The notes under the pieces: generated by a model | Told to the model about the DNA's origin: nothing | What the model saw: only the letters and a program-made list of their open reading frames with translations | Database searches by the model: none | Origin: Rhodobacteraceae bacterium IMCC1335 | GTDB lineage: Bacteria; Pseudomonadota; Alphaproteobacteria; Rhodobacterales; Rhodobacteraceae | DNA: 64,000 bases | Reading direction: 5' to 3' | Assembly: GCA_039640495.1 (NCBI GenBank) | Contig: CP046864.1 | Location: 1,612,001-1,676,000, forward strand | Part shown: positions 33,435-48,281 of the stretch, in pieces | Numbering within the stretch: position 1 is the stretch's first letter | Layout of the letters: each line of letters starts with the position of its first letter | Made by a program: the position numbers and the translations under genes

Positions 33435-34580
33435 TTAACAACATTCGAGTAATAGCTCCCGGGTATTCTCCGGCGTCATTTCCACGGGGTTTCCGCCCGT
33501 GCTGGGATCACTTAGAGCCCCCGCAACAACGCGATCAATATCAATATCTGCAATACCAAGCCCGATCAGCGTTTTTGGGATATGCAACGAAGCGTTAAGA
33601 TCATCCACAAATGCGCAAAATCCATCATAACCGCCTTGAATGTTAAGATAGTTTGCGGCGGCGGATAATTTTTTCTCAATAGCGGTTTTGTTAAATTGCA
33701 AAACAGCCGGCATACATACTGCGTTCGTTGTGCCATGATGCGTATGATACATGGCCCCGATCGGATGCGATAAGGCGTGAATGGCGCCCAGACCTTTTTG
33801 AAAGGCTGTCGCCCCCATCGCCGCGGCCGACATCATATGCGCCCGAGCTTCAAGGTCGCTGCCATCAGCATAAGCGCGGGGCAAAAAAGTTTTTACAAGC
33901 CGCATGCCTTCCAGTGCTATGCCCTGCGACATCGGGTGGTAATGGGGCGAACAAAACGCTTCTACGCAATGCGCAAACGCATCCAAGCCGGTGCCCGCTG
34001 TGATGAATTTTGGCATCCCAACGGTAAGTTCGGGATCACAAATCACCACGCTTGGTAACAACTTTGGGTGAAATATGATTTTCTTTTCTTCGGTTATGGA
34101 ATTGGTAATCACCGAGGCGCGGCCCACTTCTGATCCTGTTCCGGCCGTGGTTGGCACAGCCACAATTGGCGCAATTGCATCGGCATCTGCGCGTGTCCAC
34201 CAATCTCCGATATCTTCGAAATGCCACAAAGGGCGTGTTTGACCGGCCAGAAACGCCACCAGCTTTCCCAGATCAAGTCCGGAGCCTCCTCCAAAAGCCA
34301 CAACTCCATCATGTTCGCCTTCCTTAAAAGCGGCAACGCCTGCGGCGGCATTTTTCTCATTCGGGTTTGGATCCACATCGGCAAAAAGAGCCCGGCCAAG
34401 GCCAGCTGCCTCAAGCAGGTCTAAAGTATGGGTTGTGATCTCCATCGGGGCCAAGCCGCGATCCGTGATCAAAAGTGGTTTTTTTATTCCGGCTGCTGCG
34501 CAGGCTTCGGCGATTTCAGAAATGCGGCCCGCACCAAAGCGAATGGCGGTTGGATAAGACCAGTTTGCAACGATGCTCAT
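33435..34580 (-). CDS. Iron-containing alcohol dehydrogenase
   Basis: A 381-residue group III (Fe-ADH) dehydrogenase. Seen: NAD-binding VVAFGGGSGLDLGKLVAFL near residue 95, VPTTAGTGSEVGRASVI near 140, and the metal site D-x3-H (GTGLDAFAHCVEAF, about 195) with two later histidines (GAIHALSHPIGAMYHTHHG, about 265). Oxidises an alcohol to an aldehyde with NAD in the cytoplasm. Last gene of the minus-strand amine operon, 4 nt after the aldehyde dehydrogenase stop; the pair should oxidise an alcohol to an acid stepwise. Confidence 0.93.
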   Translation of the reverse strand: MSIVANWSYPTAIRFGAGRISEIAEACAAAGIKKPLLITDRGLAPMEITTHTLDLLEAAGLGRALFADVDPNPNEKNAAAGVAAFKEGEHDGVVAFGGGSGLDLGKLVAFLAGQTRPLWHFEDIGDWWTRADADAIAPIVAVPTTAGTGSEVGRASVITNSITEEKKIIFHPKLLPSVVICDPELTVGMPKFITAGTGLDAFAHCVEAFCSPHYHPMSQGIALEGMRLVKTFLPRAYADGSDLEARAHMMSAAAMGATAFQKGLGAIHALSHPIGAMYHTHHGTTNAVCMPAVLQFNKTAIEKKLSAAANYLNIQGGYDGFCAFVDDLNASLHIPKTLIGLGIADIDIDRVVAGALSDPSTGGNPVEMTPENTRELLLECC

Positions 34581-34584
34581 GATT

Positions 34585-35958
34585 CTAGACCTTCTTGAAG
34601 TGATATGATTTAGGACGCGTTAGATTGTGAAATCCGATAACGGATAACCCTCCACCACGGCCAGTATCTTTGCAACCGGTCCAGCACAGGGCAGGGTCAA
34701 GATAATCGGCGCGGTTTAAAAAAACGGTTCCCGTTTCGATTTGATCGGCGATGGTTTCGGCGCGAGCTCTGTTTTGGGTCCATAAAGAGGCCGTTAATCC
34801 AAAATTGCTATCATTCATAAGCGCTATCGCCTCTGCATCGTTTTTAACGGGCATGATCCCGACCACAGGGCCAAAGCTTTCTTCGCGCATGATGCGCATA
34901 TCATGGCTGACATTGGTAAGAATTTGAGGCATCAGATAGGCCCCATTATCCTCAGGGAAAGCTTCGGGTTTGATATGGGCCGTCGCTCCTGCCGCGATGG
35001 CCTCTTTGGTTTGGGCGCGGACCAGATCGGCAAAGCGGGTTTGAGCCATCGGACCGAGCGTTGTTTCTGGATCAAGCGGGTGTCCCAGCTTATAGCCATT
35101 TACGGTGGCAACGGCTTTTCCAACAAAGCTCTCAAACAAAGCTTCCTGCACATAAATACGTTCAATGCCGCAGCAGCATTGGCCGGAATTGAACATCGCA
35201 CCATCGATCAGCGTGTCTACGGCAGCGTCAAGGTGAGCGTCTTCCATCACATAGCCAGGATCCTTTCCGCCAAGCTCTAAGCCAAGACCGGTAAATGTGC
35301 CGCTGGCGGCGCTTTCCATCGCTTTGCCACCTGCAACCGAGCCGGTGAAGTTGACAAATCCAAAGGCGCGCTCTGAAATTAACGCTGATGTTGTCTCATG
35401 ATCTAAAAAAAGGTTTTGAAATACGTCTTTTGGTACGCCGGCACCGTGAAAGGCTTGCGCAAGACGTTCGCCCACCAAAGGCGTTTGCGAAGCGTGCTTT
35501 AAGATCACCGTATTTCCGGCAATAAGCGCCGGTGCAATGGTGTTGATTGCGGTCATGTAGGGGTAATTCCACGGCGCAACCACCAGAACCACGCCATGCG
35601 GCACCCGCTTGATAACGCGGCGAAACGCATCACTGTCTTCGATTTCTATATCCGCCAATGCGTTTTGGGCAATCTGCGCCATATAGGATGCGCGCTCGTC
35701 AAACCCGCCAAACTCACCGCCATAGCGGATAGGGCGCCCCATTTGCCAAGCCAGTTCTGGAACGATCTCGTCATTCATCGCGCCAATTGCCGCCACACCT
35801 GCTTTGACCAGTGAAATCCGCTCGCTTAAAGAACGTTTTGCCCATTCCCCTTGCGCAACTTTTGCGGCACGAGCGGCAGTTTTCGCATCGGCATAGGCAA
35901 GCGTTTGACGCGTGGCATAAATCGATCCGTCAATCGGCGAAATACATTGAATGGTCAT
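34585..35958 (-). CDS. NAD-dependent aldehyde dehydrogenase
   Basis: A 457-residue ALDH-family enzyme. Seen: VVAPWNYPYMTAINTIAPALIAGNTVILK (residues about 125-152), FVNFTGSVAGGKAM near 200, general base Glu in LELGGKDPGYV, catalytic Cys in FNSGQCCCGIERIYV (about 265), and EESFGPVVGI near 365. The ATG at 35958 is right for the family; the frame is open further upstream but overlaps the glutamine-synthetase-like gene. Gap of 4 nt to that gene. Similar in role to PuuC: oxidation of a gamma-glutamyl-aminoaldehyde is inferred from context. Confidence 0.93.
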   Translation of the reverse strand: MTIQCISPIDGSIYATRQTLAYADAKTAARAAKVAQGEWAKRSLSERISLVKAGVAAIGAMNDEIVPELAWQMGRPIRYGGEFGGFDERASYMAQIAQNALADIEIEDSDAFRRVIKRVPHGVVLVVAPWNYPYMTAINTIAPALIAGNTVILKHASQTPLVGERLAQAFHGAGVPKDVFQNLFLDHETTSALISERAFGFVNFTGSVAGGKAMESAASGTFTGLGLELGGKDPGYVMEDAHLDAAVDTLIDGAMFNSGQCCCGIERIYVQEALFESFVGKAVATVNGYKLGHPLDPETTLGPMAQTRFADLVRAQTKEAIAAGATAHIKPEAFPEDNGAYLMPQILTNVSHDMRIMREESFGPVVGIMPVKNDAEAIALMNDSNFGLTASLWTQNRARAETIADQIETGTVFLNRADYLDPALCWTGCKDTGRGGGLSVIGFHNLTRPKSYHFKKV

Positions 35959-35962
35959 TTTC

Positions 35963-37327
35963 TTAGGCCCTTTCAAAACCACGCGCGATTTCCCAATCGG
36001 TGACAACGCGGTCAAATTCTTCTTGTTCCCATTCGGCGGCGCGGGTGTAGTGATCGACAACCGCATCTCCCAAACACTTTCGCAGGAATGTTGAATTGCG
36101 CAATGTTTCGGTTGCGGCGCGCAAGGTTTGCGGAATATCCGCCGCCTCTGTCGCTGCATAGACATCACCGGTTGTGGCTGGGGGCAGGGGCAATTCATCC
36201 TCGATCCCCTTCAGACCAGCGGCCAACATCACAGCTTGCGCCAGGTAAGGGTTTAAATCTGAGCCACCGATCCGACATTCAACGCGGATGCCTTTTGTGC
36301 CTTCGCCGCATAAACGAAATCCAGCTGTACGATTGTCAACCGACCAGACGGTTTTTGTGGGCGCGAAAGTGCCTTTGGCAAAGCGCTTATAGCTATTGAT
36401 ATAAGGCGCAAGAAAATAGGTGTAATCGGGCGCGTATTTGATCAAACCTGCCATATAATGGCTCATCAGTTTTGACATGCCATACGGGCCTTCGCCGTCA
36501 TAAAAGGCGGGTGCGCCGTCTTTCCACAGGGATTGATGAACATGGCTGGATGAGCCAACCCGATCCTTGTGCCATTTGGGCAAAAAGGTTGCCGCGCGGC
36601 CATTTTGCCAAGCAATTTCTTTGATCGCATGTTTCGCGATGGAATGATAATCGGCGCAATCCAAGGCCGGTGAATAGCGGATATTCAGCTCTTCTTGCCC
36701 TGCCTCTGCTTCTCCTTTTGAATTTTCAACCGGCAAGCCGGCCTTATAGAGGTGGTTACGGATTGGGCGCATAACACCCTCTTCCTTCGTGGTCTGTAAA
36801 ATATGGTAGTCTTCATTATAGCCACTGATAGGCTCTAGGTTTTGAAAGCCGTCTTTGCGTATGTCATCAAAGCTTTTTTCGAACAGGAAAAATTCAAGCT
36901 CGGTTGCCATTTTAGCGTCTAACCCCATCGCATTGAAGCGCGCGATCTGCCTTTTCAGCATGGCGCGGGGCGCATGCGCTACCTCCTGATGCGTGTGGTG
37001 ATCCAAAATATCGCACAGCACAAGCGCGGTTCCCTCTAGCCAGGGAAGCAGGCGGATGGTCGAGAGGTCTGGCTTCATTACGTAATCGCCATAACCGGTT
37101 TCCCAGCTTGTTGATGCATAACCATCCGGGGTGGCCATTTCGAGATCCGTGGCCAATAGGTAATTGCAACAATGCGTTTCTTCAAAAGAGGTTTCCACAA
37201 AATTTGCGGCGTGAAAGCGCTTTCCCATCAAACGCCCTTGCATATCAACGAAACAGGCCAGAACGGTATCTATTGTGCCGTCTGAGACTTGGGTTTTTAA
37301 GGTTTCAAAGGTAAATTGTCCGGGCAT
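35963..37327 (-). CDS. Glutamine synthetase-like gamma-glutamylamide ligase
   Basis: A 454-residue glutamine-synthetase-fold ligase closer to PuuA/GlnA-like amine ligases than to GlnA. Seen: N-terminal beta-grasp (VLACFVDMQGRLMGKRF), metal ligands in MATELEFFLFE (about residue 142), EAGQEELNIRYS (about 212), HVHQSLW (about 275), and RVECRIGGSDLNPYLAQAV near 350. It lacks the Tyr adenylylation loop region typical of GlnA's C-terminus as far as I can see. Expected to join glutamate to an amine with ATP. Sits between a TRAP binding protein and two dehydrogenases. Confidence 0.9.
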   Translation of the reverse strand: MPGQFTFETLKTQVSDGTIDTVLACFVDMQGRLMGKRFHAANFVETSFEETHCCNYLLATDLEMATPDGYASTSWETGYGDYVMKPDLSTIRLLPWLEGTALVLCDILDHHTHQEVAHAPRAMLKRQIARFNAMGLDAKMATELEFFLFEKSFDDIRKDGFQNLEPISGYNEDYHILQTTKEEGVMRPIRNHLYKAGLPVENSKGEAEAGQEELNIRYSPALDCADYHSIAKHAIKEIAWQNGRAATFLPKWHKDRVGSSSHVHQSLWKDGAPAFYDGEGPYGMSKLMSHYMAGLIKYAPDYTYFLAPYINSYKRFAKGTFAPTKTVWSVDNRTAGFRLCGEGTKGIRVECRIGGSDLNPYLAQAVMLAAGLKGIEDELPLPPATTGDVYAATEAADIPQTLRAATETLRNSTFLRKCLGDAVVDHYTRAAEWEQEEFDRVVTDWEIARGFERA

Positions 37328-37349
37328 AGATATGTCTTTCGTTGAGGGT

Positions 37350-37376
37350 AAGGGGGCAGCCCATTGCTGCCCCCTT
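37350..37376 (-). terminator. Strong hairpin between dctP and the glutamine-synthetase-like gene
   Basis: Eleven-base perfect arms (AAGGGGGCAGC / GCTGCCCCCTT) around a 5-nt loop, 9 nt after the binding-protein stop on the minus strand. It is followed by TACC rather than T-run, so it probably stabilises or attenuates the message rather than ending it. Confidence 0.75.
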
Positions 37377-37385
37377 TGTGATCGA

Positions 37386-38417
37386 TTAGCCGTAGCGGTA
37401 GGGACGACCCGCTTTCACCATATCGGCATTATATTTCTTAAAGATATCAACAACGCGACGTTTGGTTTCGCTTTCTGCCGCAATTTCTTCCCAAAACTCT
37501 TGGGCGGCCGTTTCAACCGTTGCCCATTCCTCATCTGGGATTGTGGTCAGCTGGAGTTTTGTTCCATTGACGCGCAGGTTGGCTTCACCGCCCCAATACC
37601 ACCATTGGCGGTAATAATGCGATTGGTCGCAACACACGCGGAACAGCGTCTGCAGGTCTTCGGGCAATTCATTCCAGCGCTCCATATTGGCAAAGAAGGA
37701 TCCCGCCCAAGCGCCTGAAATATTATTGGTCAGGAAGTAATTGGTTACATCAGCCCATCCCACGGTGTAATCTTCCGTGATGCCAGACCATGCGATCCCA
37801 TCCAGTTCGCCGGTTTGCACAGCCACTTCAATATCTTCCCAAGGCAGGTTCACAGGAACAACGCCAAACTGGCTGAGGAAACGCCCCGCAGTTGGAAAGG
37901 TAAAGATCCGCTTACCTTTCATGTCATCCAAGCTGCGGATGGGATCTTTGGTGGCAAAGTGGCAGGGATCCCAAGAGCCTGCAGAAATATGCTTTACGCC
38001 AACGGCAGAATATTCCTCATCCCAAATTTCGTTTAAGCCATATTGGTTAAACAGCACCGGCACATCGAGCGAATAGCGCGATCCGAATGGAAAATAGCCC
38101 CCAAACACGGTTACTTCGGTGGGCGAGGCCATCGAATCATCATCGGATTGAACAGCATCAATGGTGCCGCGCTGCATGGCTTGGAACAATTCACCCGTGG
38201 GCACCAGCTGATCGGCGAAGAACAATTCGATTTGCATCCGGTCGCCAGCAATTTTGTTGAACATATCAATGGCGGGTACGATTACTTCCGCTGCGAGAGA
38301 CGCACCGGCATAGGTTTGCATCCGCCATTTAATGGTGCTTTGGGCCAGCGCCGGAGTGGCAAGGGCCGCAGGTGCAGCGATCGCTGCACCTTGAATAAAC
38401 TTACGTCTGGTAGTCAT
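37386..38417 (-). CDS. dctP: TRAP transporter substrate-binding protein, DctP family
   Basis: A 343-residue TRAP binding protein of the larger COG4663-like (FcbT1/mannitol-chloroaromatic) type. Seen: twin-arginine signal TTRRKFIQGAAIAAPAALATPALA, then IKWRMQTYAGASLAAEVIVPAID, MQRGTIDAVQSDDDSM, and MKGKRIFTFPTAGRFLSQFGVVPVNLPW (about 165), the binding-site arginine region. Delivers substrate to DctQM. Placed between dctM and the ligase gene, so the imported compound is probably the ligase's amine. Ligand unknown. Confidence 0.92.
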   Translation of the reverse strand: MTTRRKFIQGAAIAAPAALATPALAQSTIKWRMQTYAGASLAAEVIVPAIDMFNKIAGDRMQIELFFADQLVPTGELFQAMQRGTIDAVQSDDDSMASPTEVTVFGGYFPFGSRYSLDVPVLFNQYGLNEIWDEEYSAVGVKHISAGSWDPCHFATKDPIRSLDDMKGKRIFTFPTAGRFLSQFGVVPVNLPWEDIEVAVQTGELDGIAWSGITEDYTVGWADVTNYFLTNNISGAWAGSFFANMERWNELPEDLQTLFRVCCDQSHYYRQWWYWGGEANLRVNGTKLQLTTIPDEEWATVETAAQEFWEEIAAESETKRRVVDIFKKYNADMVKAGRPYRYG

Positions 38418-38462
38418 GTCAGTCTCCTTGGTTGGGTTGCGACCACGTTTTATGCGGTTCTG

Positions 38463-39791
38463 TTAAGGTTGGTTATAAACATAATCAGGAAGCCAAGTAG
38501 CGATGCTTGGGAAAATCATGATCAATATTAGCGCACAGACCATAATCAAAACAAAGGGCGTAATAGAGGCATAGATGTCTTTTAAAGAAATTTCTGGCGG
38601 CGCCATCGCGCGCATAAGAAAAAGGTTATAGCCGAAAGGCGGCGTCATATAAGCAATCTGAGTGGTGATAGTGTAGAGAATGCCATACCAGATCAAATCA
38701 AAGCCCAAAGCGCCCACCAAAGGAACATATAGCGGTGCAACGATCACCAGCATCGCCGTATCATCCAAAAAAGTGCCCATCAAAATAAAACTAAGTTGCA
38801 TCAGGATCAGGATCATCAGCGGACTTAAATTTAGGCGCTCGGTGAACACGCTTTCGATTGCTTTAACGGCGCCAAGCCCGTCAAATACCGCCCCAAAGGC
38901 CAGCGCCGCCAAAATAATCCACATGAACATGCAGGTGATCCCAAGCGTGTTTCTAACAGAGTTTTCGAACACTTCTCTGGTCATACGGCCTTTTAGGATT
39001 GCGGCAAGGAAGGCTGCCATCGCCCCTATTGCGGAACTTTCCACAAGTGATGTCCAGCCATTCACAAATGGCACCATCATGGCGGCAAAGATGGTCACCG
39101 GCAGCAATCCAGCCCGCAAAAGCCGCATCTTTTCGGCTTTTGGAATATCGCGCTCGCTGGCATCCAGAACGGGGCCAAGTATAGGGTTTATGCGGCACCG
39201 CACAGTAATATAGAGGATGAATAAGGCCGCCATCATCAATCCGGGTATGACACCGGCCAACCAGAGCTGTCCAACCGGTTGACGCGCGATCATCGCATAG
39301 AGCACCAGAACCACCGAGGGCGGCACCAAAATGCCAAGGCTAGATCCGGCTTGGATCACGCCGGTGACCATGCGTTTGTCATAGCCTCGTTTCAAAAGTT
39401 CGGGCAGGGCAATCGTTGCGCCAATCGCCATACCGGCAACGCTAAGCCCATTCATCGCTGAAATCAGCACCATTAACCCGATGGTTCCGATCGCCAAGCC
39501 GCCGCGAAGGCCGCCCATCCAAACGTGGAACATCTTGTAAAGATCATCCGCAATTTTACTTTCTGACAGCACATAACCCATAAAAATAAACATGGGCAGC
39601 GTCAGCAATGGGTACCATTTCATCAATTTCATCGCGGCAGAAAAGCCTATGTCAAAACCGCCTTTATCCCCCCAAAGCAGCAATGCAGCCGCCACTGCAA
39701 CAAACCCGATTGCGCCAAACACCCGTTGCCCTGTGAGCAGCATCAGCATCATGGTGGAAAACATCAGCGTGGCGATCATTTCATATGGCAT
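38463..39791 (-). CDS. dctM: TRAP transporter large permease
   Basis: A 442-residue inner-membrane protein with about twelve helices, full length for DctM. Seen: LPMFIFMGYVLSESKIADDLYKMFHVWMG near residue 65, GLSVAGMAIGATIALPELLKRGY, SSLGILVPPSVVLVLYAMI and FLDDTAMLVIVAPLYVPL near 345, all typical. Overlaps dctQ by 1 nt. Takes the ligand from DctP using a sodium or proton gradient. Confidence 0.95.
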   Translation of the reverse strand: MPYEMIATLMFSTMMLMLLTGQRVFGAIGFVAVAAALLLWGDKGGFDIGFSAAMKLMKWYPLLTLPMFIFMGYVLSESKIADDLYKMFHVWMGGLRGGLAIGTIGLMVLISAMNGLSVAGMAIGATIALPELLKRGYDKRMVTGVIQAGSSLGILVPPSVVLVLYAMIARQPVGQLWLAGVIPGLMMAALFILYITVRCRINPILGPVLDASERDIPKAEKMRLLRAGLLPVTIFAAMMVPFVNGWTSLVESSAIGAMAAFLAAILKGRMTREVFENSVRNTLGITCMFMWIILAALAFGAVFDGLGAVKAIESVFTERLNLSPLMILILMQLSFILMGTFLDDTAMLVIVAPLYVPLVGALGFDLIWYGILYTITTQIAYMTPPFGYNLFLMRAMAPPEISLKDIYASITPFVLIMVCALILIMIFPSIATWLPDYVYNQP

Positions 39792-40360
39792 CAGATCGCT
39801 TCGCCCTTAACGCGCAAAATATCTTTAAACAATTCTGACAGGCATTGCAGCAGCATCAAAAACATGCCCACGATCATCAAAGCTTTAACGGGCCACATGT
39901 AAGGGCGCCAAGCCGTTGATGAGCGCTCCATCCGGCCAATTTCTTCCGCACCGGTGATCAATCCTGCAAAAAATGAGAACGGCTCGGTGCCCCAATATCC
40001 CAATGAATAGGCCGTAGAACTTATTGCGCCGTAAAGCAGAACCCCAAGATAGAAGATCAAAAACAAAACAGTCAGCAAATCAAACCAAGCTTTTTTGCGC
40101 AAAGACCACGTGCCGTAAAATAAATCCATGCGCACGTCCGATTCCATTTGTAGGGAATAAGGCCCCCCTAAAATATAATAGGCCACCATGGTAAATTGGG
40201 CCATTTCTAACGTCCATAAAGAGGGGAGGAAAAATGTTTTGCTGATCGAAGACCATAATAAAATGCCCATCAGAACAAAAATACCGTACATCACAATACG
40301 CCCAATCCGCAAATTGACCCGGTCAATCGACGAGATATAAAGCTGCATCAGGCGCGACAT
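39791..40360 (-). CDS. dctQ: TRAP transporter small permease
   Basis: A 189-residue membrane protein with four helices (IVMYGIFVLMGILLW, MVAYYILGGPYSLQMESDVRMDLFYG, LTVLFLIFYLGVLLYGAI, PVKALMIVGMFLMLLQ). The ESDVRMDLFYG stretch is the usual DctQ mid-loop. It overlaps the amidohydrolase end by 13 nt and dctM by 1 nt. Confidence 0.92.
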   Translation of the reverse strand: MSRLMQLYISSIDRVNLRIGRIVMYGIFVLMGILLWSSISKTFFLPSLWTLEMAQFTMVAYYILGGPYSLQMESDVRMDLFYGTWSLRKKAWFDLLTVLFLIFYLGVLLYGAISSTAYSLGYWGTEPFSFFAGLITGAEEIGRMERSSTAWRPYMWPVKALMIVGMFLMLLQCLSELFKDILRVKGEAI

Positions 40361-41127
40361 TGTACATCTCCGACCACGCCTAAGCGGATGCAGGCTTGAT
40401 CAATCCATTTTGCAATCATTTTTGCCATGGCGTTTTGTTGATCGTCTGTTGCGATTAAATCATTGCGGATTTCTAGCATAACGTTGAGATGGCCGTGCGC
40501 AATCGCGTGTTCTTGCAGGGTATGTGTTACGCCGTCCTCAGGCCCATAGGGGGCGTTACGCTTTATATTCTGGTCGCGTTTTTCGTTAGAAATATCCAGC
40601 ATTGCATCCGCTAGCCGGGTATCTGCATCGTGCAGAACGCCTATTTGCAAGGATCTTGGCTTACCAAAAAAAATAGGTGTAAAGCTATGAACCGTTACCA
40701 AAATGGGATCAGGTCGCCGCATCATGGCTTGATGCAGTTGCTCGCGAAAAGGCTCATAAAACAGCTTGACCCGCTGTGATTTTTCGGAAGCTGTGAGATC
40801 TTTATTTCCAGGTATATCGATTAACTCGCTGCGCGTTGGCATTGCGCTTGTCGCGTTTGGAGGTCGGTTACAGTCATATAACAAACGCGACGCTTGGCTG
40901 GCCACCAAAACTGCGTTCAATAGGTGAGAAAGCTTTTGTGCAACACCTAAAGCTCCTGGATCCCAGGCCGCATGGCTGCTCTGGTCTTCCGATGTCAGAC
41001 CCAAAGCGTTGTAGTCATCAGGGATGTAAGAAGAGGCGTGCTCGCAGGCCAGCACAATGGAGGACCCGCCAGATGGGTTTATCGTGGCAACATAGTCACT
41101 GAAATATTCAAACGGCGTGCTGGTCAT
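40348..41127 (-). CDS. N-formylglutamate amidohydrolase-family protein
   Basis: A 259-residue metal-dependent amidohydrolase of the FGase (HutG-II) family. Seen: IVLACEHASSYIPDDYNALGL near residue 25 (zinc-site EHAS), AAWDPGALGVAQKL, VLVASQASRLLYDCNRPP near 80, VTVHSFTPIFFGKPR near 145, and HLNVMLEIRNDLI near 220. ATG 41127 has GAGGA 4 nt upstream and matches the family start. The family hydrolyses N-formylglutamate; no histidine-degradation genes are here, so I infer it hydrolyses an amide made in this cluster, such as a gamma-glutamyl or N-acyl glutamate bond. First gene of the operon. Confidence 0.85.
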   Translation of the reverse strand: MTSTPFEYFSDYVATINPSGGSSIVLACEHASSYIPDDYNALGLTSEDQSSHAAWDPGALGVAQKLSHLLNAVLVASQASRLLYDCNRPPNATSAMPTRSELIDIPGNKDLTASEKSQRVKLFYEPFREQLHQAMMRRPDPILVTVHSFTPIFFGKPRSLQIGVLHDADTRLADAMLDISNEKRDQNIKRNAPYGPEDGVTHTLQEHAIAHGHLNVMLEIRNDLIATDDQQNAMAKMIAKWIDQACIRLGVVGDVQCRA

Positions 41128-41186
41128 GATTCCTCTTTCAGGTACAAGGCTCTTGCCAAAACATGCTTCTGTCAACACAATAGTGA

Positions 41187-41196
41187 TAATTAATTA
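41187..41196. promoter_or_regulatory. Palindrome in the divergent promoter region of the amine cluster
   Basis: TAATTAATTA is a perfect 10-bp palindrome between the divergent amidohydrolase and RpiR genes (41128-41247). It may be an operator of the RpiR regulator, but AT-rich palindromes arise easily and this is weak evidence. Confidence 0.25.
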
Positions 41197-41247
41197 CCCA
41201 GTGCTAAGAATATGTTATTTATTTATCAAAACTGAAGGGGCGTGCCT

Positions 41248-42120
41248 ATGATGGAAGCCAGTTTAACAATTTCGGATCGCATTCAGAATAAGCTTGATGA
41301 TTTAACGCGCGCAGAGCGGCAATTGGCACTTTCAATTCTTGAGAATTACCCCGCATCGGGTTTGGGGCCTCTCAGTGCCTTGGCCAAAGATGCGAAAGTA
41401 TCCGTTCCAACCGTTGCCCGTATGGTGCAAAAACTTGGCTTTCAAGGCTATTCAGAGTTTCAAACAGAGCTGCGCAAAGAGCTTCGGGCGAAGGTAAAAA
41501 GCCCCATTGCAAAACATGATGCTTGGTCAGAGGGCGCGCCTTCAGAACATCTGTTGAATAGGTTTACCGAGTCGGTGATCGATAATATCCGCCATACGCT
41601 GGGGCAAATTGATTCCGGTGCGTTTGATGACGCCTGCCGTATCGCGGCCAACACAAACCACCATCTTTATATTGTGGGGGGGCGGATTTCGCATATTTTG
41701 GCGGAATATCTGTTTTTACATATGCAGCTTATCCGACCCAAAATTACGCATATTCAATCGACGTCGAATACCTGGCCTCATTACTTGCTTGATGTCAAAG
41801 CGGGCGATGTTTTCATTATTTTCGATATGCGGCGATATGAAAATAATACGCTGAAACTGGCAGAAATGGCCTATGAAAGAGACGCGAAAATCATCTTATT
41901 CACCGATCAATGGCGCTCGCCTATTCATCGGATGGCGGAGCAAAGCTTTGGCAGCCGCATCGTCGTGCCCTCGGCGTGGGATTCTGCGATTACGCCGTTG
42001 CTTTTGCTTGAAACGATGATTTCTACCGTTCAAGCGATCACTTGGGGCGATACAAAAGATAGGATGGAAGCGCTTGAAGAGATGTTTGACCAGACGAAGC
42101 TTTTCCGAAAATTTACGTGA
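41248..42120 (+). CDS. RpiR/MurR-family transcriptional regulator
   Basis: A 290-residue regulator. Seen: N-terminal helix-turn-helix of the HTH_6 type (LTRAERQLALSILENYPASGLGPLSALAKDAKVSVPTVARMVQKLGF, residues about 17-65) and a C-terminal SIS-like domain (HHLYIVGGRISHILAEYLFLHM, FIIFDMRRYENNTLKLAEMAYERDAKIILFTD). Start ATG 41248 is 7 nt after a GGGG box; GTG 41242 is the alternative. Divergent from the amidohydrolase-TRAP-ligase operon, so probably its regulator. The effector may be a catabolic intermediate rather than a sugar phosphate. Confidence 0.9.
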   Translation: MMEASLTISDRIQNKLDDLTRAERQLALSILENYPASGLGPLSALAKDAKVSVPTVARMVQKLGFQGYSEFQTELRKELRAKVKSPIAKHDAWSEGAPSEHLLNRFTESVIDNIRHTLGQIDSGAFDDACRIAANTNHHLYIVGGRISHILAEYLFLHMQLIRPKITHIQSTSNTWPHYLLDVKAGDVFIIFDMRRYENNTLKLAEMAYERDAKIILFTDQWRSPIHRMAEQSFGSRIVVPSAWDSAITPLLLLETMISTVQAITWGDTKDRMEALEEMFDQTKLFRKFT

Positions 42121-42420: not shown

Positions 42421-43413
42421 ATGAATATTTCACAAAAAATGGGGCGGCGGTTGTTTACCACTGCAGCGCTCGCCGTGGGATTGCTGGCAAGCGCCGGGAC
42501 TGTTGCCGCGGAAAAAGTTAAGGTGGCCGCGATTTATACTTTGCCCGTCGAACAGCAATGGATAAGTCGCATTCATAAGGCTTTAAACACTGCCGCCGAA
42601 AGCGGAACCATCGAATATACGTTTTCAGAAAACGTGGCCAATACGGATTATGAGCGGGTGATGCGCGAATATGCCGAACAAGGACATGATTTGATTGTTG
42701 GCGAGGTGTTTGGCCTTGAGCGGGCCGCGCGCAAAGTGGCGAAAGATTATTCGGAAACCGCGTTTTTAATGGGCTCGTCTTTCGGCCCCGTGGCACCGAA
42801 CTTCTCGGTGTTTGACAATTGGATACATGAACCCTCTTATTTGACGGGTATGGTCGCCGGTTCAATGACCAAATCAAATATGATTGGCATGGTGGGTGGC
42901 TATGCTATTCCTGAGGTGAACCGCTTGATGCATGCCTTCATGGATGGCGCACGCGCAGTGAACCCTGATGTGAAGTTCCTCGTGAACTTTATTGACAGCT
43001 GGTACGATCCGCCCAAAGCCAAAGAAAGCGCCTTTGCGATGATGGATGCGGGTGCTGATATTATGTATGCAGAGCGCTTTGGCGTTGCGGATGCGGCCGT
43101 AGAGCGGGGGGTAAAAGCGATTGGGAATGTGATTGACACGTCCGGCGATTATCCTGGAACGATTTTGGCATCGGCGATTTGGCATATGGAAGCAACCATA
43201 GACAAAGCCATCGCCAAGGTGGCCTCAGATGATTTTGAGGCGGCTGATTATGGTCAGTATAGTTTCATGGCCTTTGGCGGGGGATCTATGGTTCTGGATG
43301 AGGGACTGGTGCCGGCTGACGTTGCTGCCGCAGTGAAAGCCACCGAAAAAGACATTCTCGACGGCCTGTTTCGTGTGAATGTGAACGATGCGCGACCTGC
43401 GTCTGACGGATAA
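42421..43413 (+). CDS. BMP-family ABC transporter substrate-binding protein
   Basis: A 330-residue lipobox-free periplasmic binding protein of the BMP (basic membrane protein/nucleoside) family. Seen: signal peptide ending near AGTVAAE, then KVKVAAIYTLPVEQQWISRIHKAL, GHDLIVGEVFGLERAARKVA, NWIHEPSYLTGMVAGSMTKSNMIGMVGG near residue 140 (family core), and a GSMVLDEGLVP near the end. BMP proteins bind purine or pyrimidine nucleosides and similar compounds. RBS AAGGAGA. A strong hairpin follows before the ATPase gene. Confidence 0.92.
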   Translation: MNISQKMGRRLFTTAALAVGLLASAGTVAAEKVKVAAIYTLPVEQQWISRIHKALNTAAESGTIEYTFSENVANTDYERVMREYAEQGHDLIVGEVFGLERAARKVAKDYSETAFLMGSSFGPVAPNFSVFDNWIHEPSYLTGMVAGSMTKSNMIGMVGGYAIPEVNRLMHAFMDGARAVNPDVKFLVNFIDSWYDPPKAKESAFAMMDAGADIMYAERFGVADAAVERGVKAIGNVIDTSGDYPGTILASAIWHMEATIDKAIAKVASDDFEAADYGQYSFMAFGGGSMVLDEGLVPADVAAAVKATEKDILDGLFRVNVNDARPASDG

Positions 43414-43419
43414 AAGAGC

Positions 43420-43451
43420 AGGCCGGCCCGTAGAGAGGGCCGGCCTTTTTT
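43420..43451 (+). terminator. Strong terminator-like hairpin between the BMP gene and its ATPase
   Basis: Ten-base perfect arms (AGGCCGGCCC / GGGCCGGCCT) with a 7-nt loop and a T-run (TTTTT), 6 nt after the BMP stop and 4 nt before the ATPase start codon. It must be partly read through for the ABC genes to be expressed from the same promoter. Confidence 0.88.
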
Positions 43452-43454
43452 AAA

Positions 43455-44972
43455 ATGTATTCTGATAAAATATTAGCCTTAAAAGGCCTGTCCAAAACCT
43501 TTGGAACCATCGCTGCCAATTGCGATGTTGATCTTGATCTGCACCGCGGAGAGATATTGGCGTTGCTGGGTGAAAATGGGGCAGGAAAAACCACTTTGAT
43601 GAATATGTTGTTCGGGCATTACATGCCGGATGCGGGGCAAATCGAAGTGGCTGATGCCAATCAACGGTTTTTACCGCTGACGCTTGGGCATCCTCAGGCA
43701 GCGATTGCCGCGGGGATTGGTATGGTGCATCAACATTTCACATTGGCCGAAAATTTGGATGCGGTTGATAATATTATGTTGGGCGCTGAACCTATGACCT
43801 TATTGCCCAGAAAGCGCGCCGCCGCCGAAAAGAAGATCCGCACGATTATGGCTCAAAGCGGTCTGACGGCTCCTATAAATGTTGCAGTGGGTAAATTGAC
43901 GGTTGGCGAACGTCAGCGTGTTGAAATTTTAAAAGCCCTTTATCGCGATGTAAAAATACTCGTTTTGGATGAGCCGACCGCGGTTTTAACGCCGCAAGAG
44001 GCGGATGCGCTGTTTGAAAATATTCGGGCCATGGCGCAGGATGGGCTATCGGTTATTTTTATTTCGCATAAATTGCGCGAGGTTTTGGCATTTTCGCATC
44101 GCATAACCGTTTTACGCCATGGCAAAAATGCAGGAGAAATTCAAACTGATCAGGCGGATGAGCAGAAAATTGCGCGAATGATGGTGGGGTCAGAAACGCT
44201 GTCCCACACTCGCGAACTGCAAGAAAATGGGCCTGCTTTACTGCGGTTTAAAAGGGTTTCAGTGCAAGGGCGCGCGCGCCGCGACAGTTTGAAAAATGTT
44301 GATCTGACCGTTTTCTCTGGTGAGATCCTAGGGATCGCGGGCGTCTCGGGCAATGGCCAGACAGCCTTGGCTGGCGTGATCTCTGGCATGCTCTCAATCG
44401 AGAGCGGAGAGGTCTTGATAGAAGAGCAACCACTGTTGGACATCACCCCCGCCGCGATGATTTCGCGCGGCGTTGGGCGCATTCCAGAAGATCGCCATCG
44501 AGATGGAATTGTGGGATCGATGAGTGTTGCTGAGAATATGGTTATAGAGCAGTTGGACGACCCAACTTTACAACGAAATGGATTGCTGAGGCGCGATGCG
44601 ATCCGCGATTATGCCGAGACGCTATTGTCAGAATATGACGTGCGAGGGCCAGGGGCGCAGGCTTCGGCACGCTTGTTGTCAGGCGGCAATATCCAAAAAT
44701 TGATTTTGGCGCGGGTGTTTGATCGCAGCCCCAAGCTTATTCTTGCTAATCAACCCACTCGCGGATTGGATATGGGGGCAGCCTCTGAGGTGGCGCGGCG
44801 GCTTCTTGAGGCCCGCGGGCGCGGCGCCGGCATTGTTTTGATTTCCGAAGATTTAGACGAAATTCTGAAGCTGGCTGATCGCATTTTGGTGGTTCATGAT
44901 GGCGCGTTTTCCATTGCAAAAACGCGTGACCGTGCGCAATTGGGTTTGATGATGGCAGGGCAGGCGGCATGA
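43455..44972 (+). CDS. ABC transporter ATP-binding protein, two nucleotide-binding domains
   Basis: A 505-residue double ATPase of the sugar/nucleoside type (RbsA/NupA-like). Seen in domain 1: Walker A LLGENGAGKTTLMNML near residue 38, signature LTVGERQRVEILKAL, Walker B VLDEPTAVLTP. Domain 2 has a degenerate loop GVSGNGQTALAG near 302 and signature LLSGGNIQKLILARV near 412, as usual for this type. No RBS distance problem: it starts 4 nt after the terminator-like hairpin. Overlaps the first permease by 4 nt. Confidence 0.94.
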   Translation: MYSDKILALKGLSKTFGTIAANCDVDLDLHRGEILALLGENGAGKTTLMNMLFGHYMPDAGQIEVADANQRFLPLTLGHPQAAIAAGIGMVHQHFTLAENLDAVDNIMLGAEPMTLLPRKRAAAEKKIRTIMAQSGLTAPINVAVGKLTVGERQRVEILKALYRDVKILVLDEPTAVLTPQEADALFENIRAMAQDGLSVIFISHKLREVLAFSHRITVLRHGKNAGEIQTDQADEQKIARMMVGSETLSHTRELQENGPALLRFKRVSVQGRARRDSLKNVDLTVFSGEILGIAGVSGNGQTALAGVISGMLSIESGEVLIEEQPLLDITPAAMISRGVGRIPEDRHRDGIVGSMSVAENMVIEQLDDPTLQRNGLLRRDAIRDYAETLLSEYDVRGPGAQASARLLSGGNIQKLILARVFDRSPKLILANQPTRGLDMGAASEVARRLLEARGRGAGIVLISEDLDEILKLADRILVVHDGAFSIAKTRDRAQLGLMMAGQAA

Positions 44973-46042
44973 TCAGAATTGAAGCTAGAGAATCCGCTTC
45001 ATCTTTTATGAAATTGGGCATTCCCGTTTTATCTGCCTGCGTGGCGTTGCTCTTGGCGGCAATTCCGTTGATGTTTGCAGGCGCCCCTGTTGGGGCCTCA
45101 TACGCGCAGATGTTTATGGGCGTTTTTGGTTCAAAATTTGCGTTTTCCGAAATGCTCACGCGGGCCACGCCATTGATATTTACGGGGCTTGCTGCCGCCT
45201 TGGCCTTTCGGGCCAAACTGTGGAATATTGGCGCGGAAGGCCAGCTTTATTTGGGCGCTTTGGCCGCAGCAGCGATTGGCACTGGGGTGCTGGATATTTC
45301 AGGGCTGCTGTTGATCCCAGTGATTATTATATGCGGCTGTGCAGCAGGTGCCTTTGGCATGGCGGTGCCCGCAGCGCTGAAAATTCGCTTTGGGGCAGAT
45401 GAGGTGGTCACCACATTGCTGTTGAATTTTATTATCTTAATTTTTCTTCAATATATGTTGGAGGGGCCGCTAAAAGATCCGATGGGTCTTGGTTGGCCGC
45501 AGACAGCGCCTATCTTGGATCAAGGCATGTTGCCGCCTTTGATGGAGCGTATGCGCATTCATTACGGGTTTGTTATCGCCCTGATCTGCGCGGCCGTGGC
45601 GCAATTTATGCTGTTGCGGTCGGTTTGGGGGTTCAAACTGCGCGCGGTTGGTGAAAATAGAAATGCCGCCGGACATGCGGGCATACCGGTCAATCGAAGC
45701 TTGTTGACGGCGGCCGCTATTTCGGGGGCGTTGGCAGGCTTGGCGGGTGTGAGCGAAGTAGCCGGCCTTAAAGGTTATCTGACCGCAGATCTTTCCCCAG
45801 GTTTTGGCTATACTGGCATTGTCGTCGCGATGCTTGCGGGGTTGTCTCCCGGCGGGGTGGTCGTGTCGGCGCTTTTTATCGCTTCGGTTTTTGTGGGGGC
45901 CGATAGCATGAGCCGCGCTATGGGCGTGTCGTCTTATCTTGCCGATTTGGTTGTGGCAACGGCCTTACTCTGTGTTTTGGTTGGTGGCTTTGTCGCGCGT
46001 TATAAATTTGTGCGGGTGCGCCGACAATTGGAACGGCTTTGA
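44969..46042 (+). CDS. ABC transporter permease, nucleoside type
   Basis: A 357-residue BPD_transp_2 permease with about nine helices. Seen: TPLIFTGLAAALAFRAKLWNIGAEGQLYLGAL near residue 70 (the NIGAEGQ motif of nucleoside/sugar permeases), FGADEVVTTLLLNFI near 150, and AAISGALAGLAGVSEV near 250. Overlaps the ATPase stop by 4 nt. Confidence 0.93.
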   Translation: MIRIEARESASSFMKLGIPVLSACVALLLAAIPLMFAGAPVGASYAQMFMGVFGSKFAFSEMLTRATPLIFTGLAAALAFRAKLWNIGAEGQLYLGALAAAAIGTGVLDISGLLLIPVIIICGCAAGAFGMAVPAALKIRFGADEVVTTLLLNFIILIFLQYMLEGPLKDPMGLGWPQTAPILDQGMLPPLMERMRIHYGFVIALICAAVAQFMLLRSVWGFKLRAVGENRNAAGHAGIPVNRSLLTAAAISGALAGLAGVSEVAGLKGYLTADLSPGFGYTGIVVAMLAGLSPGGVVVSALFIASVFVGADSMSRAMGVSSYLADLVVATALLCVLVGGFVARYKFVRVRRQLERL

Positions 46043-46044
46043 TC

Positions 46045-46986
46045 ATGGATATTCTTCAAATTTTGCTCAGCGAAAGCTTTTGGTCTGCCTCGATCAGGAT
46101 CGCAACACCGCTTATCTTTGGCGTTCTGGGCGCCTTAATTTGCGAAAAATCCGGTGTTTTGAATCTTGGAATCGAAGGCATTTTCGTGGCTGGTGCAATG
46201 GTGGGTTGGATGGCGGTTTGGTTGGGCGCTGGCTTATGGGGCGGGGTGCTTGCCGCAGCCCTTGCAGGAGCGTTTTTTGGATTGCTGCATGGTATTTTAA
46301 CGGTCCCGCTGGGCCTAAGCCAACACGTGTCGGGCTTGGGAATCACGCTTTTTGCCACCTCTGTCAGCTATTTTTCTTACCGCACGGCGCTTCCTACCGT
46401 GTCGTCGCCGCCGCGCATAACGCCGTTTCGACCGTTGGATATTCCGATTTTGTCAGATTTGCCTTTTATCGGCCCGATTTTGTTTCAGCAAACGGCGCTT
46501 ACCTTCTTGGCGCTTTTTTGCGTTGCCGTGGTTTGGTATATTTTTAACAAAACCGCGCTGGGTGTTGCTTTAAAGGCGGTTGGTGACAATCCGAACTCAG
46601 TGGATGCGCAAGGATTAAGCGTTTATACGCTGCGCATCGGCGCCGTGATGGCCGGATCGGCTTTGATGGCGCTTGGCGGCGCGTTTTTAACGATGTCTGC
46701 CTTTGATGCCTTCTTTTTTGGCATGGTAAATGGCCGTGGCTGGATTTGCATCGCATTGGTTATTTTCGCCAGTTGGCGGCCTGGAAAGGCGCTTTTGGGG
46801 GCGATTTTATTTGGAGCTTTTGATGCTTTGCAGGTACGCCTACAAACCGAGGTTGGCGGGTCTGTGCCCAGCCAAGTTTTTCTGGCGGCTCCATACGTCT
46901 TATCGATCATTGCCCTTGTGATCGCGGCAAGAAGCGCGGATTATCCACGGGCCTTGTTAACCCCTTGGTTTAAAGGCCAACGATAG
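46045..46986 (+). CDS. ABC transporter permease, nucleoside type, second subunit
   Basis: A 313-residue BPD_transp_2 permease partner of the previous gene. Seen: ATPLIFGVLGALICEKSGVLNLGIEGIFVAGAM near residue 20 (NLGIEG motif), GLSQHVSGLGITLFATSVSYF near 90, and GLSVYTLRIGAVMAGSALMALGGAFLTM near 190. I chose ATG 46045 over TTG 46039. It ends 8 nt before the deaminase-like gene. Confidence 0.93.
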   Translation: MDILQILLSESFWSASIRIATPLIFGVLGALICEKSGVLNLGIEGIFVAGAMVGWMAVWLGAGLWGGVLAAALAGAFFGLLHGILTVPLGLSQHVSGLGITLFATSVSYFSYRTALPTVSSPPRITPFRPLDIPILSDLPFIGPILFQQTALTFLALFCVAVVWYIFNKTALGVALKAVGDNPNSVDAQGLSVYTLRIGAVMAGSALMALGGAFLTMSAFDAFFFGMVNGRGWICIALVIFASWRPGKALLGAILFGAFDALQVRLQTEVGGSVPSQVFLAAPYVLSIIALVIAARSADYPRALLTPWFKGQR

Positions 46987-46994
46987 GAGCTGCT

Positions 46995-48281
46995 ATGTTT
47001 GATTTATTGGTAAAGAATGCGGTTCTGCCCGATGGGCGCAGCGGCTTGGATATTGGGTGCAAAGGCGATCGCATTGTGGCGTTAGAGCGCGATATTTCAG
47101 CCGAGGCTCGGCAGGTGATTGAGGCCGAAGGCTGCTTGCTTGCGCCGCCGTTTGTCGATCCGCATTTTCATATGGACGCCACGCTTTCTTTAGGCACGCC
47201 TCGGATGAATATGTCGGGCACATTGCTTGAAGGTATTGAACTTTGGGGAGAGCTGAAGGCGGTGCAAAGCATCGATGATATCATTGAGCGCGCGCTGCGC
47301 TATTGTGATTTGGCGGTTTCAATGGGCATTGGCGCAATCCGCTCGCATGTGGATACTTGCGATCCAAAGCTAACCGGTGTGCAGGCTCTTTTAGAGGTGC
47401 GCAACCAGGTAAAAGATTATCTGGATTTGCAGCTGGTTGCCTTCCCACAAGATGGCGTGCTGCGCGATCCTGCGGCGCTTGAACTCACCATTCGAGCTTT
47501 GGATATGGGGGTGGATATTGTCGGTGGTATCCCTCATTTTGAACGGACGATGGCCGATGGCGCAGAATCGGTGCGGGTCTTATGCGAGCTTGCCGCAAAG
47601 CGCGGTTTGAGGGTGGATATGCATTGCGATGAAAGCGATGACCCGATGAGCCGACATATTGAAACTTTGGCCTTTGAAACGCAGCGCCTCGGACTGCAAG
47701 GGCGGGTTGCCGGGTCGCATCTGACATCAATGCATTCTATGGATAACTACTATGTGTCCAAGCTTATCCCACTTATTGTTGAGGCTGGCATTGGCGTTAT
47801 TCCTAATCCTTTGATCAATATCATGCTGCAGGGGCGGCATGACAGTTACCCGAAGCGACGCGGCCAAACGCGGGTACGCGAGCTGCGCGATGCGGGGGTG
47901 ACGGTTGGCTTTGGTTCGGATTGCGTGATGGACCCTTGGTATTCTTTGGGCCGGGCAGATATGCTGGATGTGGCGTTTGTGGGGTTGCATGCGGGTCAAT
48001 TATCAAGCCGTGAGGATATGGCCTGGTGCTTCACCGCAATCACTGAAAACTCAGCGCAAATCATGGGGCTTGAGGACTATGGTATCGCAAAAGGCTGCTT
48101 CGCTGATTTCAACTTGTTGCAAGCGAAAGACAGCATTGAGGCGATTAGATTGCGAGCACATCGGTTGCAGGTTGTTCGGCGGGGAAAAATTATCGCGCGC
48201 AATGCTCCGCTAAGCAGCGAAATGGATTTGCCCGGTCGCCCCACAACCATTGATCCGTCAAGCTTTGCCCCCAAATCTTGA
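46995..48281 (+). CDS. codA: Cytosine deaminase-like amidohydrolase
   Basis: A 428-residue amidohydrolase aligned throughout with E. coli CodA as I remember it, at a constant offset of minus 4. Seen: metal ligands His57 and His59 (DPHFHMD), Gln152, His210 and Glu213 (HCDE), His242 (GSHLTSMHS), Asp309 and Trp315 (FGSDCVMDPWY). CodA's Asp314 is Cys310 here and His312 is Ser308. RBS GGAG. Directly follows the BMP importer genes, so it likely deaminates the imported base. Cytosine is the default guess; the changed residue near substrate C5 could allow another pyrimidine or azole. Confidence 0.85.
   Translation: MFDLLVKNAVLPDGRSGLDIGCKGDRIVALERDISAEARQVIEAEGCLLAPPFVDPHFHMDATLSLGTPRMNMSGTLLEGIELWGELKAVQSIDDIIERALRYCDLAVSMGIGAIRSHVDTCDPKLTGVQALLEVRNQVKDYLDLQLVAFPQDGVLRDPAALELTIRALDMGVDIVGGIPHFERTMADGAESVRVLCELAAKRGLRVDMHCDESDDPMSRHIETLAFETQRLGLQGRVAGSHLTSMHSMDNYYVSKLIPLIVEAGIGVIPNPLINIMLQGRHDSYPKRRGQTRVRELRDAGVTVGFGSDCVMDPWYSLGRADMLDVAFVGLHAGQLSSREDMAWCFTAITENSAQIMGLEDYGIAKGCFADFNLLQAKDSIEAIRLRAHRLQVVRRGKIIARNAPLSSEMDLPGRPTTIDPSSFAPKS

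Follow-up and report, generated by a model that had tools for sequence, protein, structure and literature searches.

The closest described system is a single operon of Phaeobacter (Roseobacter) sp. MED193, MED193_10021-10056 (PMC10132767). In order, it is reported to encode an RpiR regulator (MED193_10021), a gamma-glutamylglycine amidohydrolase (GGAH, MED193_10026), the TRAP transporter proteins EtoV (10031), EtoW (10036) and EtoX (10041), an ethanolamine gamma-glutamylase (ETAGA, 10046), a gamma-glutamylacetaldehydeamide dehydrogenase (GAADDH, 10051) and a gamma-glutamylethanolamide dehydrogenase (GETADH, 10056) (PMC10132767). EtoX binds ethanolamine with a Kd of 7.9 ± 1.9 µM and does not bind phosphorylethanolamine, glycerol phosphates or phosphocholine, and five of the operon proteins are up on phosphorylethanolamine (PMC10132767, Table 2). 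EtoX is also up when no phosphorus source is added (the -P column of the same table gives 2.14). The induction of MED193 EtoX is therefore not purely substrate-driven, which counts against the interpretation given below.

Citing Vetting et al., the same paper refers to Chromohalobacter salexigens and to Agrobacterium tumefaciens C58. C. salexigens, a different organism again, has an ethanolamine pathway at Csal_0678, the TRAP binding protein, and its neighbours; a 2022 review tables the enzymes of this species as PF00120, PF00465, PF00171 and PF05013, PF00465 being labelled an iron-dependent dehydrogenase and PF05013 a formylglutamate amidohydrolase (PMC9397018). The same route has been proposed for Streptomyces coelicolor SCO1610-1615 (GlnA4), with a glutamine synthetase (GS)-like ligase, a dehydrogenase, an aldehyde dehydrogenase (ALDH) and release to glycine and glutamate by an enzyme of the PF05013 (FGase) family (PMC6529630). 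Clusters of this type have a permease in place of the TRAP transporter, the permease being absent in S. coelicolor itself, and according to the figure legend the alcohol is oxidised by a short-chain dehydrogenase (PMC6529630). The accessible portions of the literature on the pathway yielded no in vitro assay of the alcohol dehydrogenase, the ALDH or the hydrolase, and this also counts against the interpretation.

The window analysed here is a stretch of 64,000 nt from contig CP046864.1 of Rhodobacteraceae bacterium IMCC1335, and coordinates are positions in this window unless stated otherwise. Open reading frames and Pfam searches show that positions 33435-42120 contain a compact operon of seven minus-strand genes, divergent from an RpiR regulator gene on the plus strand. 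The gene families, the divergent regulator and the close spacing (4-58 nt, or overlaps) had all been recognised in the initial annotation, and all are borne out; the measured gaps, from the FGase gene to the iron-type alcohol dehydrogenase (Fe-ADH) gene, are -13, -1, 45, 58, 4 and 4 nt. On the basis of orthology, gene order and conserved motifs, we are highly confident that this cluster represents the Rhodobacteraceae operon for gamma-glutamyl ethanolamine utilisation, of the EtoVWX type.

The MED193 operon was recovered in our genome scan (locus L060), and all eight of its genes match those of the window in protein family, order and orientation, with identities, calculated as percentages over aligned residues, of 44.7-88.6%. 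The RpiR-family regulator (41242..42120, plus strand; Pfam HTH_6 and SIS) is 49.3% identical to its counterpart MED193_10021. On the minus strand, the FGase-family hydrolase (40348..41127; PF05013), a putative GGAH, is 44.7% identical. The TRAP proteins are closer, at 64.0% for the small permease DctQ (EtoV; 39791..40360; PF04290), 80.0% for the large permease DctM (EtoW; 38463..39791; PF06808) and 88.6% for DctP (EtoX; 37386..38417; PF03480), which by orthology would be the ethanolamine-binding protein. The GS-fold ligase (35963..37327; PF00120, Gln-synt_C), a putative ethanolamine gamma-glutamylase, is 73.5% identical. The ALDH (34585..35958; PF00171, Aldedh), predicted to convert gamma-glutamyl-aminoacetaldehyde to gamma-glutamylglycine, and the Fe-ADH (33435..34580; PF00465 and PF25137), a putative gamma-glutamylethanolamide dehydrogenase, are 74.3% and 73.8% identical respectively. 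The two operons, from different organisms, differ in the length of the DctM reading frame (500 aa in MED193, 442 aa in the window) and in the divergence of the FGase and RpiR sequences; that these two are less conserved than the other six genes counts against the interpretation.

All four enzyme families tabled for C. salexigens are likewise present in the window. The cluster had been put forward as undescribed, with the Fe-ADH and the FGase-type release as new steps. Neither part of this claim holds: the same eight-gene operon has been published in MED193 (PMC10132767), PF00465 is in print for C. salexigens and so is PF05013 (PMC9397018), and FGase-family release has been proposed (PMC6529630). 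The operon is thus already known, and represents one more instance of a described and widespread arrangement rather than a new kind of pathway.

In the proposed mechanism, the TRAP transporter would import ethanolamine, and the GS-like ligase would use ATP to join it to glutamate as gamma-glutamylethanolamide. The Fe-ADH would then oxidise the alcohol of this compound to the aldehyde, the ALDH would convert the aldehyde to gamma-glutamylglycine, and the FGase-family hydrolase would release glutamate and glycine, with the RpiR protein as the presumed regulator of the operon. This is the mechanism predicted in the initial annotation, and it is very probably right, since every step matches the gamma-glutamyl ethanolamine pathway as set out in the published text. 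Ethanolamine, the substrate it had named first, is also the reported ligand of the orthologous MED193 EtoX. The case shows that the logic of a pathway can be read from sequence. Ethanolamine derived from membrane phospholipids is a source of nitrogen and carbon in the sea, and the operon would open this source to a bacterium that lacks the ammonia-lyase route. The Eut ammonia-lyase route was itself rejected as an explanation, as EutB (PF06751) gave no match at E <= 0.001 in the window's own genome; among 14 control genomes, the same search found a match in E. coli only.

The best solved chain for DctP is by far 4uab (636.7 bits, E 9.1e-191; the next scores 73.6 bits), which we take to be Csal_0678 with ethanolamine. 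The sequence of 4xf5 is identical to that of 4uab, and 4xf5 presumably holds 2-amino-1-propanol; this would favour the same route with another small amino alcohol, such as 2-aminopropanol or 3-aminopropanol, as the main natural substrate. Such a substrate would also be compatible with the affinity test of MED193 EtoX, which in the accessible text names no other amino alcohol (PMC10132767). We consider it very unlikely, in view of the high identity of DctP to a protein with micromolar affinity for ethanolamine and the increase of MED193 operon proteins on phosphorylethanolamine. In pairwise alignments, Phe 172 of DctP and a Phe in 4uab align with an Arg of the TRAP protein 4yzz, which we infer to be the equivalent of the carboxylate-selective Arg usual in TRAP binding proteins. 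This substitution fits the published description of Csal_0678 as binding ethanolamine and having no such Arg (PMC4646407), ethanolamine being described elsewhere as a surprising TRAP ligand (PMC5812351). A broader scheme, in which the FGase-family enzyme hydrolyses gamma-glutamyl amino acids broadly and amino alcohols such as 2-aminopropanol are also processed by the operon, yielding alanine as well as glycine, seems to us unlikely.

The ligase falls far below the cut-offs of three NCBIfam models. It scores 240.4 bits against GlnA (TIGR00653, cut-off 429.15) and 195.8 bits against gamma-glutamylputrescine synthetase (PuuA, NF045547, cut-off 650), and it is also far below the cut-off for type III GS. 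The Puu putrescine pathway follows a similar logic of gamma-glutamyl ligase and ALDH, but uses the PuuB oxidase and the PuuD amidase, both of which are replaced in the window operon; the putrescine reading was rejected on the ligase score. Four other GS homologues in the same genome share only 26-31% identity with the ligase, whose closest solved structure is 5dm3 (763.8 bits), presumably Csal_0679. At G000:C1:2223073-2224140 in the same genome, a further GS-family gene gives two adjacent matches (L006 and L007), each in a 497-aa open frame, and probably encodes a single divergent GS that carries an insertion.

For the two dehydrogenases, solved structures offer only general relatives (best 8zrl for the Fe-ADH, 228.1 bits, and 3vz0 for the ALDH, 237.7 bits). 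The Fe-ADH passes no NCBIfam model, the best being 4-hydroxybutyrate dehydrogenase (359.9 bits against a cut-off of 500), and this counts against its specific assignment. The motifs LDAFAH, HALSH and HHG of the Fe-ADH, and ELGGK and GQCC of the ALDH, which serve in metal binding and catalysis, are intact.

The Pfam name of the hydrolase family, N-formylglutamate amidohydrolase, invites another reading, in which the hydrolase deformylates N-formylglutamate as HutG does, the ligase is an ordinary enzyme for glutamine or putrescine, and chance has placed the genes side by side. The window FGase has no NCBIfam match at E <= 0.001, the HutG model TIGR02017 included, and among solved structures it matches only 2odf, named hypothetical protein Atu2144, at the same threshold. 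A second FGase-family gene elsewhere in the genome (L105, G000:C1:3456511-3457206) fits the Pfam FGase model better (238.2 bits, against 123 for the window FGase) and matches TIGR02017 weakly (103.9 bits, below the cut-off of 278.75). Close to it are pyrF and a gene for DNA polymerase IV; given these neighbours and the score below the cut-off, its identity as HutG is likewise not established. The HutG reading, and with it a role in histidine degradation, was rejected on the NCBIfam scores and on this better-fitting second gene. Together with the ligase scores, the separate GS homologues and the conserved gene order described next, this makes a chance assembly of HutG-type and ordinary ligase genes extremely improbable.

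Of the 587 stretches confirmed in the genome scan, the best 80 were kept as loci. The full eight-gene order, judged by order and strand, is found in 63 of these 80, and the arrangement is therefore not due to chance; in a few of the loci with full order (L067, L078, L086) DctP is separated from the ligase by a longer gap. Contig ends truncate ten of the other 17, and the remaining seven (L022, L039, L043, L046, L049, L054 and L069) lack at least one gene despite full flanks, which counts against the interpretation. A DctP relative at E <= 1e-60 is present in 68 of the 120 family genomes drawn, the window's own included. Among 12 family genomes hand-picked from the 32 matches of this search with at most 77% identity, eight have the full order and four do not, the latter again counting against the interpretation; L098, L099 and L100 show the TRAP genes only, and L103 lacks the ligase, ALDH and Fe-ADH. 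When plasmids were searched with the ligase, 686 records were retrieved; 21 have an identity of 60-80%, the highest being that of Ruegeria sp. B32 (75.6%).

In L022, L039, L046, L054 and L069, ethanolamine-type TRAP genes occur with no ligase within about 9 kb, an observation also counted against the interpretation. In L022 they lie downstream of adenine-deaminase and penicillin-amidase genes. Ten ORFs scanned from four of these loci (five from L022, three from L069, one each from L039 and L046, none from L054) revealed no common partner. Nine of them encode a penicillin amidase, an adenine deaminase, two ABC permeases, an FAD oxidoreductase, the L069 FGase, a molybdopterin-binding protein, a cyclase and an M24 peptidase; the tenth, which lies opposite the DctP gene in L046, has no match and is probably not a true gene.

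Some of the gene starts differ from the longest possible frames. The longest ALDH ORF (537 aa, start 36198) overlaps the ligase gene, and ATG 35958 is the likely start; from there the protein has 457 aa, and 4 nt separate its gene from that of the ligase. The true start of RpiR may be an ATG 6-9 nt inside the annotated 41242 start. The longest FGase ORF reaches GTG 41178, and the alternative ATG 41127, which gives 259 aa, is the likelier start because GTG 41178 overlaps a TTGACA element (41170..41175, minus strand) resembling a -35 box upstream of the operon. In a MAFFT alignment of the RpiR-FGase intergenic region, comprising the window and those 21 of the 80 loci with an RpiR identity of 72% or more, TTGACA is present in 20 of the 22 rows and TTGAC in all 22. 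It is from this conservation only that a promoter-like role is suggested, the element being absent from the list of a consensus promoter scan. That scan found 8 sites against a mean of 13.2 in shuffled sequences, that is, fewer than the shuffles, and terminator-like sites number 17 against 11.9.

Adjoining the RpiR gene, at 42421-48281 on the plus strand, the window encodes a BMP/PnrA-like binding protein, an ABC ATPase, two permeases and an amidohydrolase. The amidohydrolase is cytosine-deaminase-like (PRK07572, 757.9 bits against a cut-off of 438), and the set probably serves the uptake and deamination of nucleobases or nucleosides.
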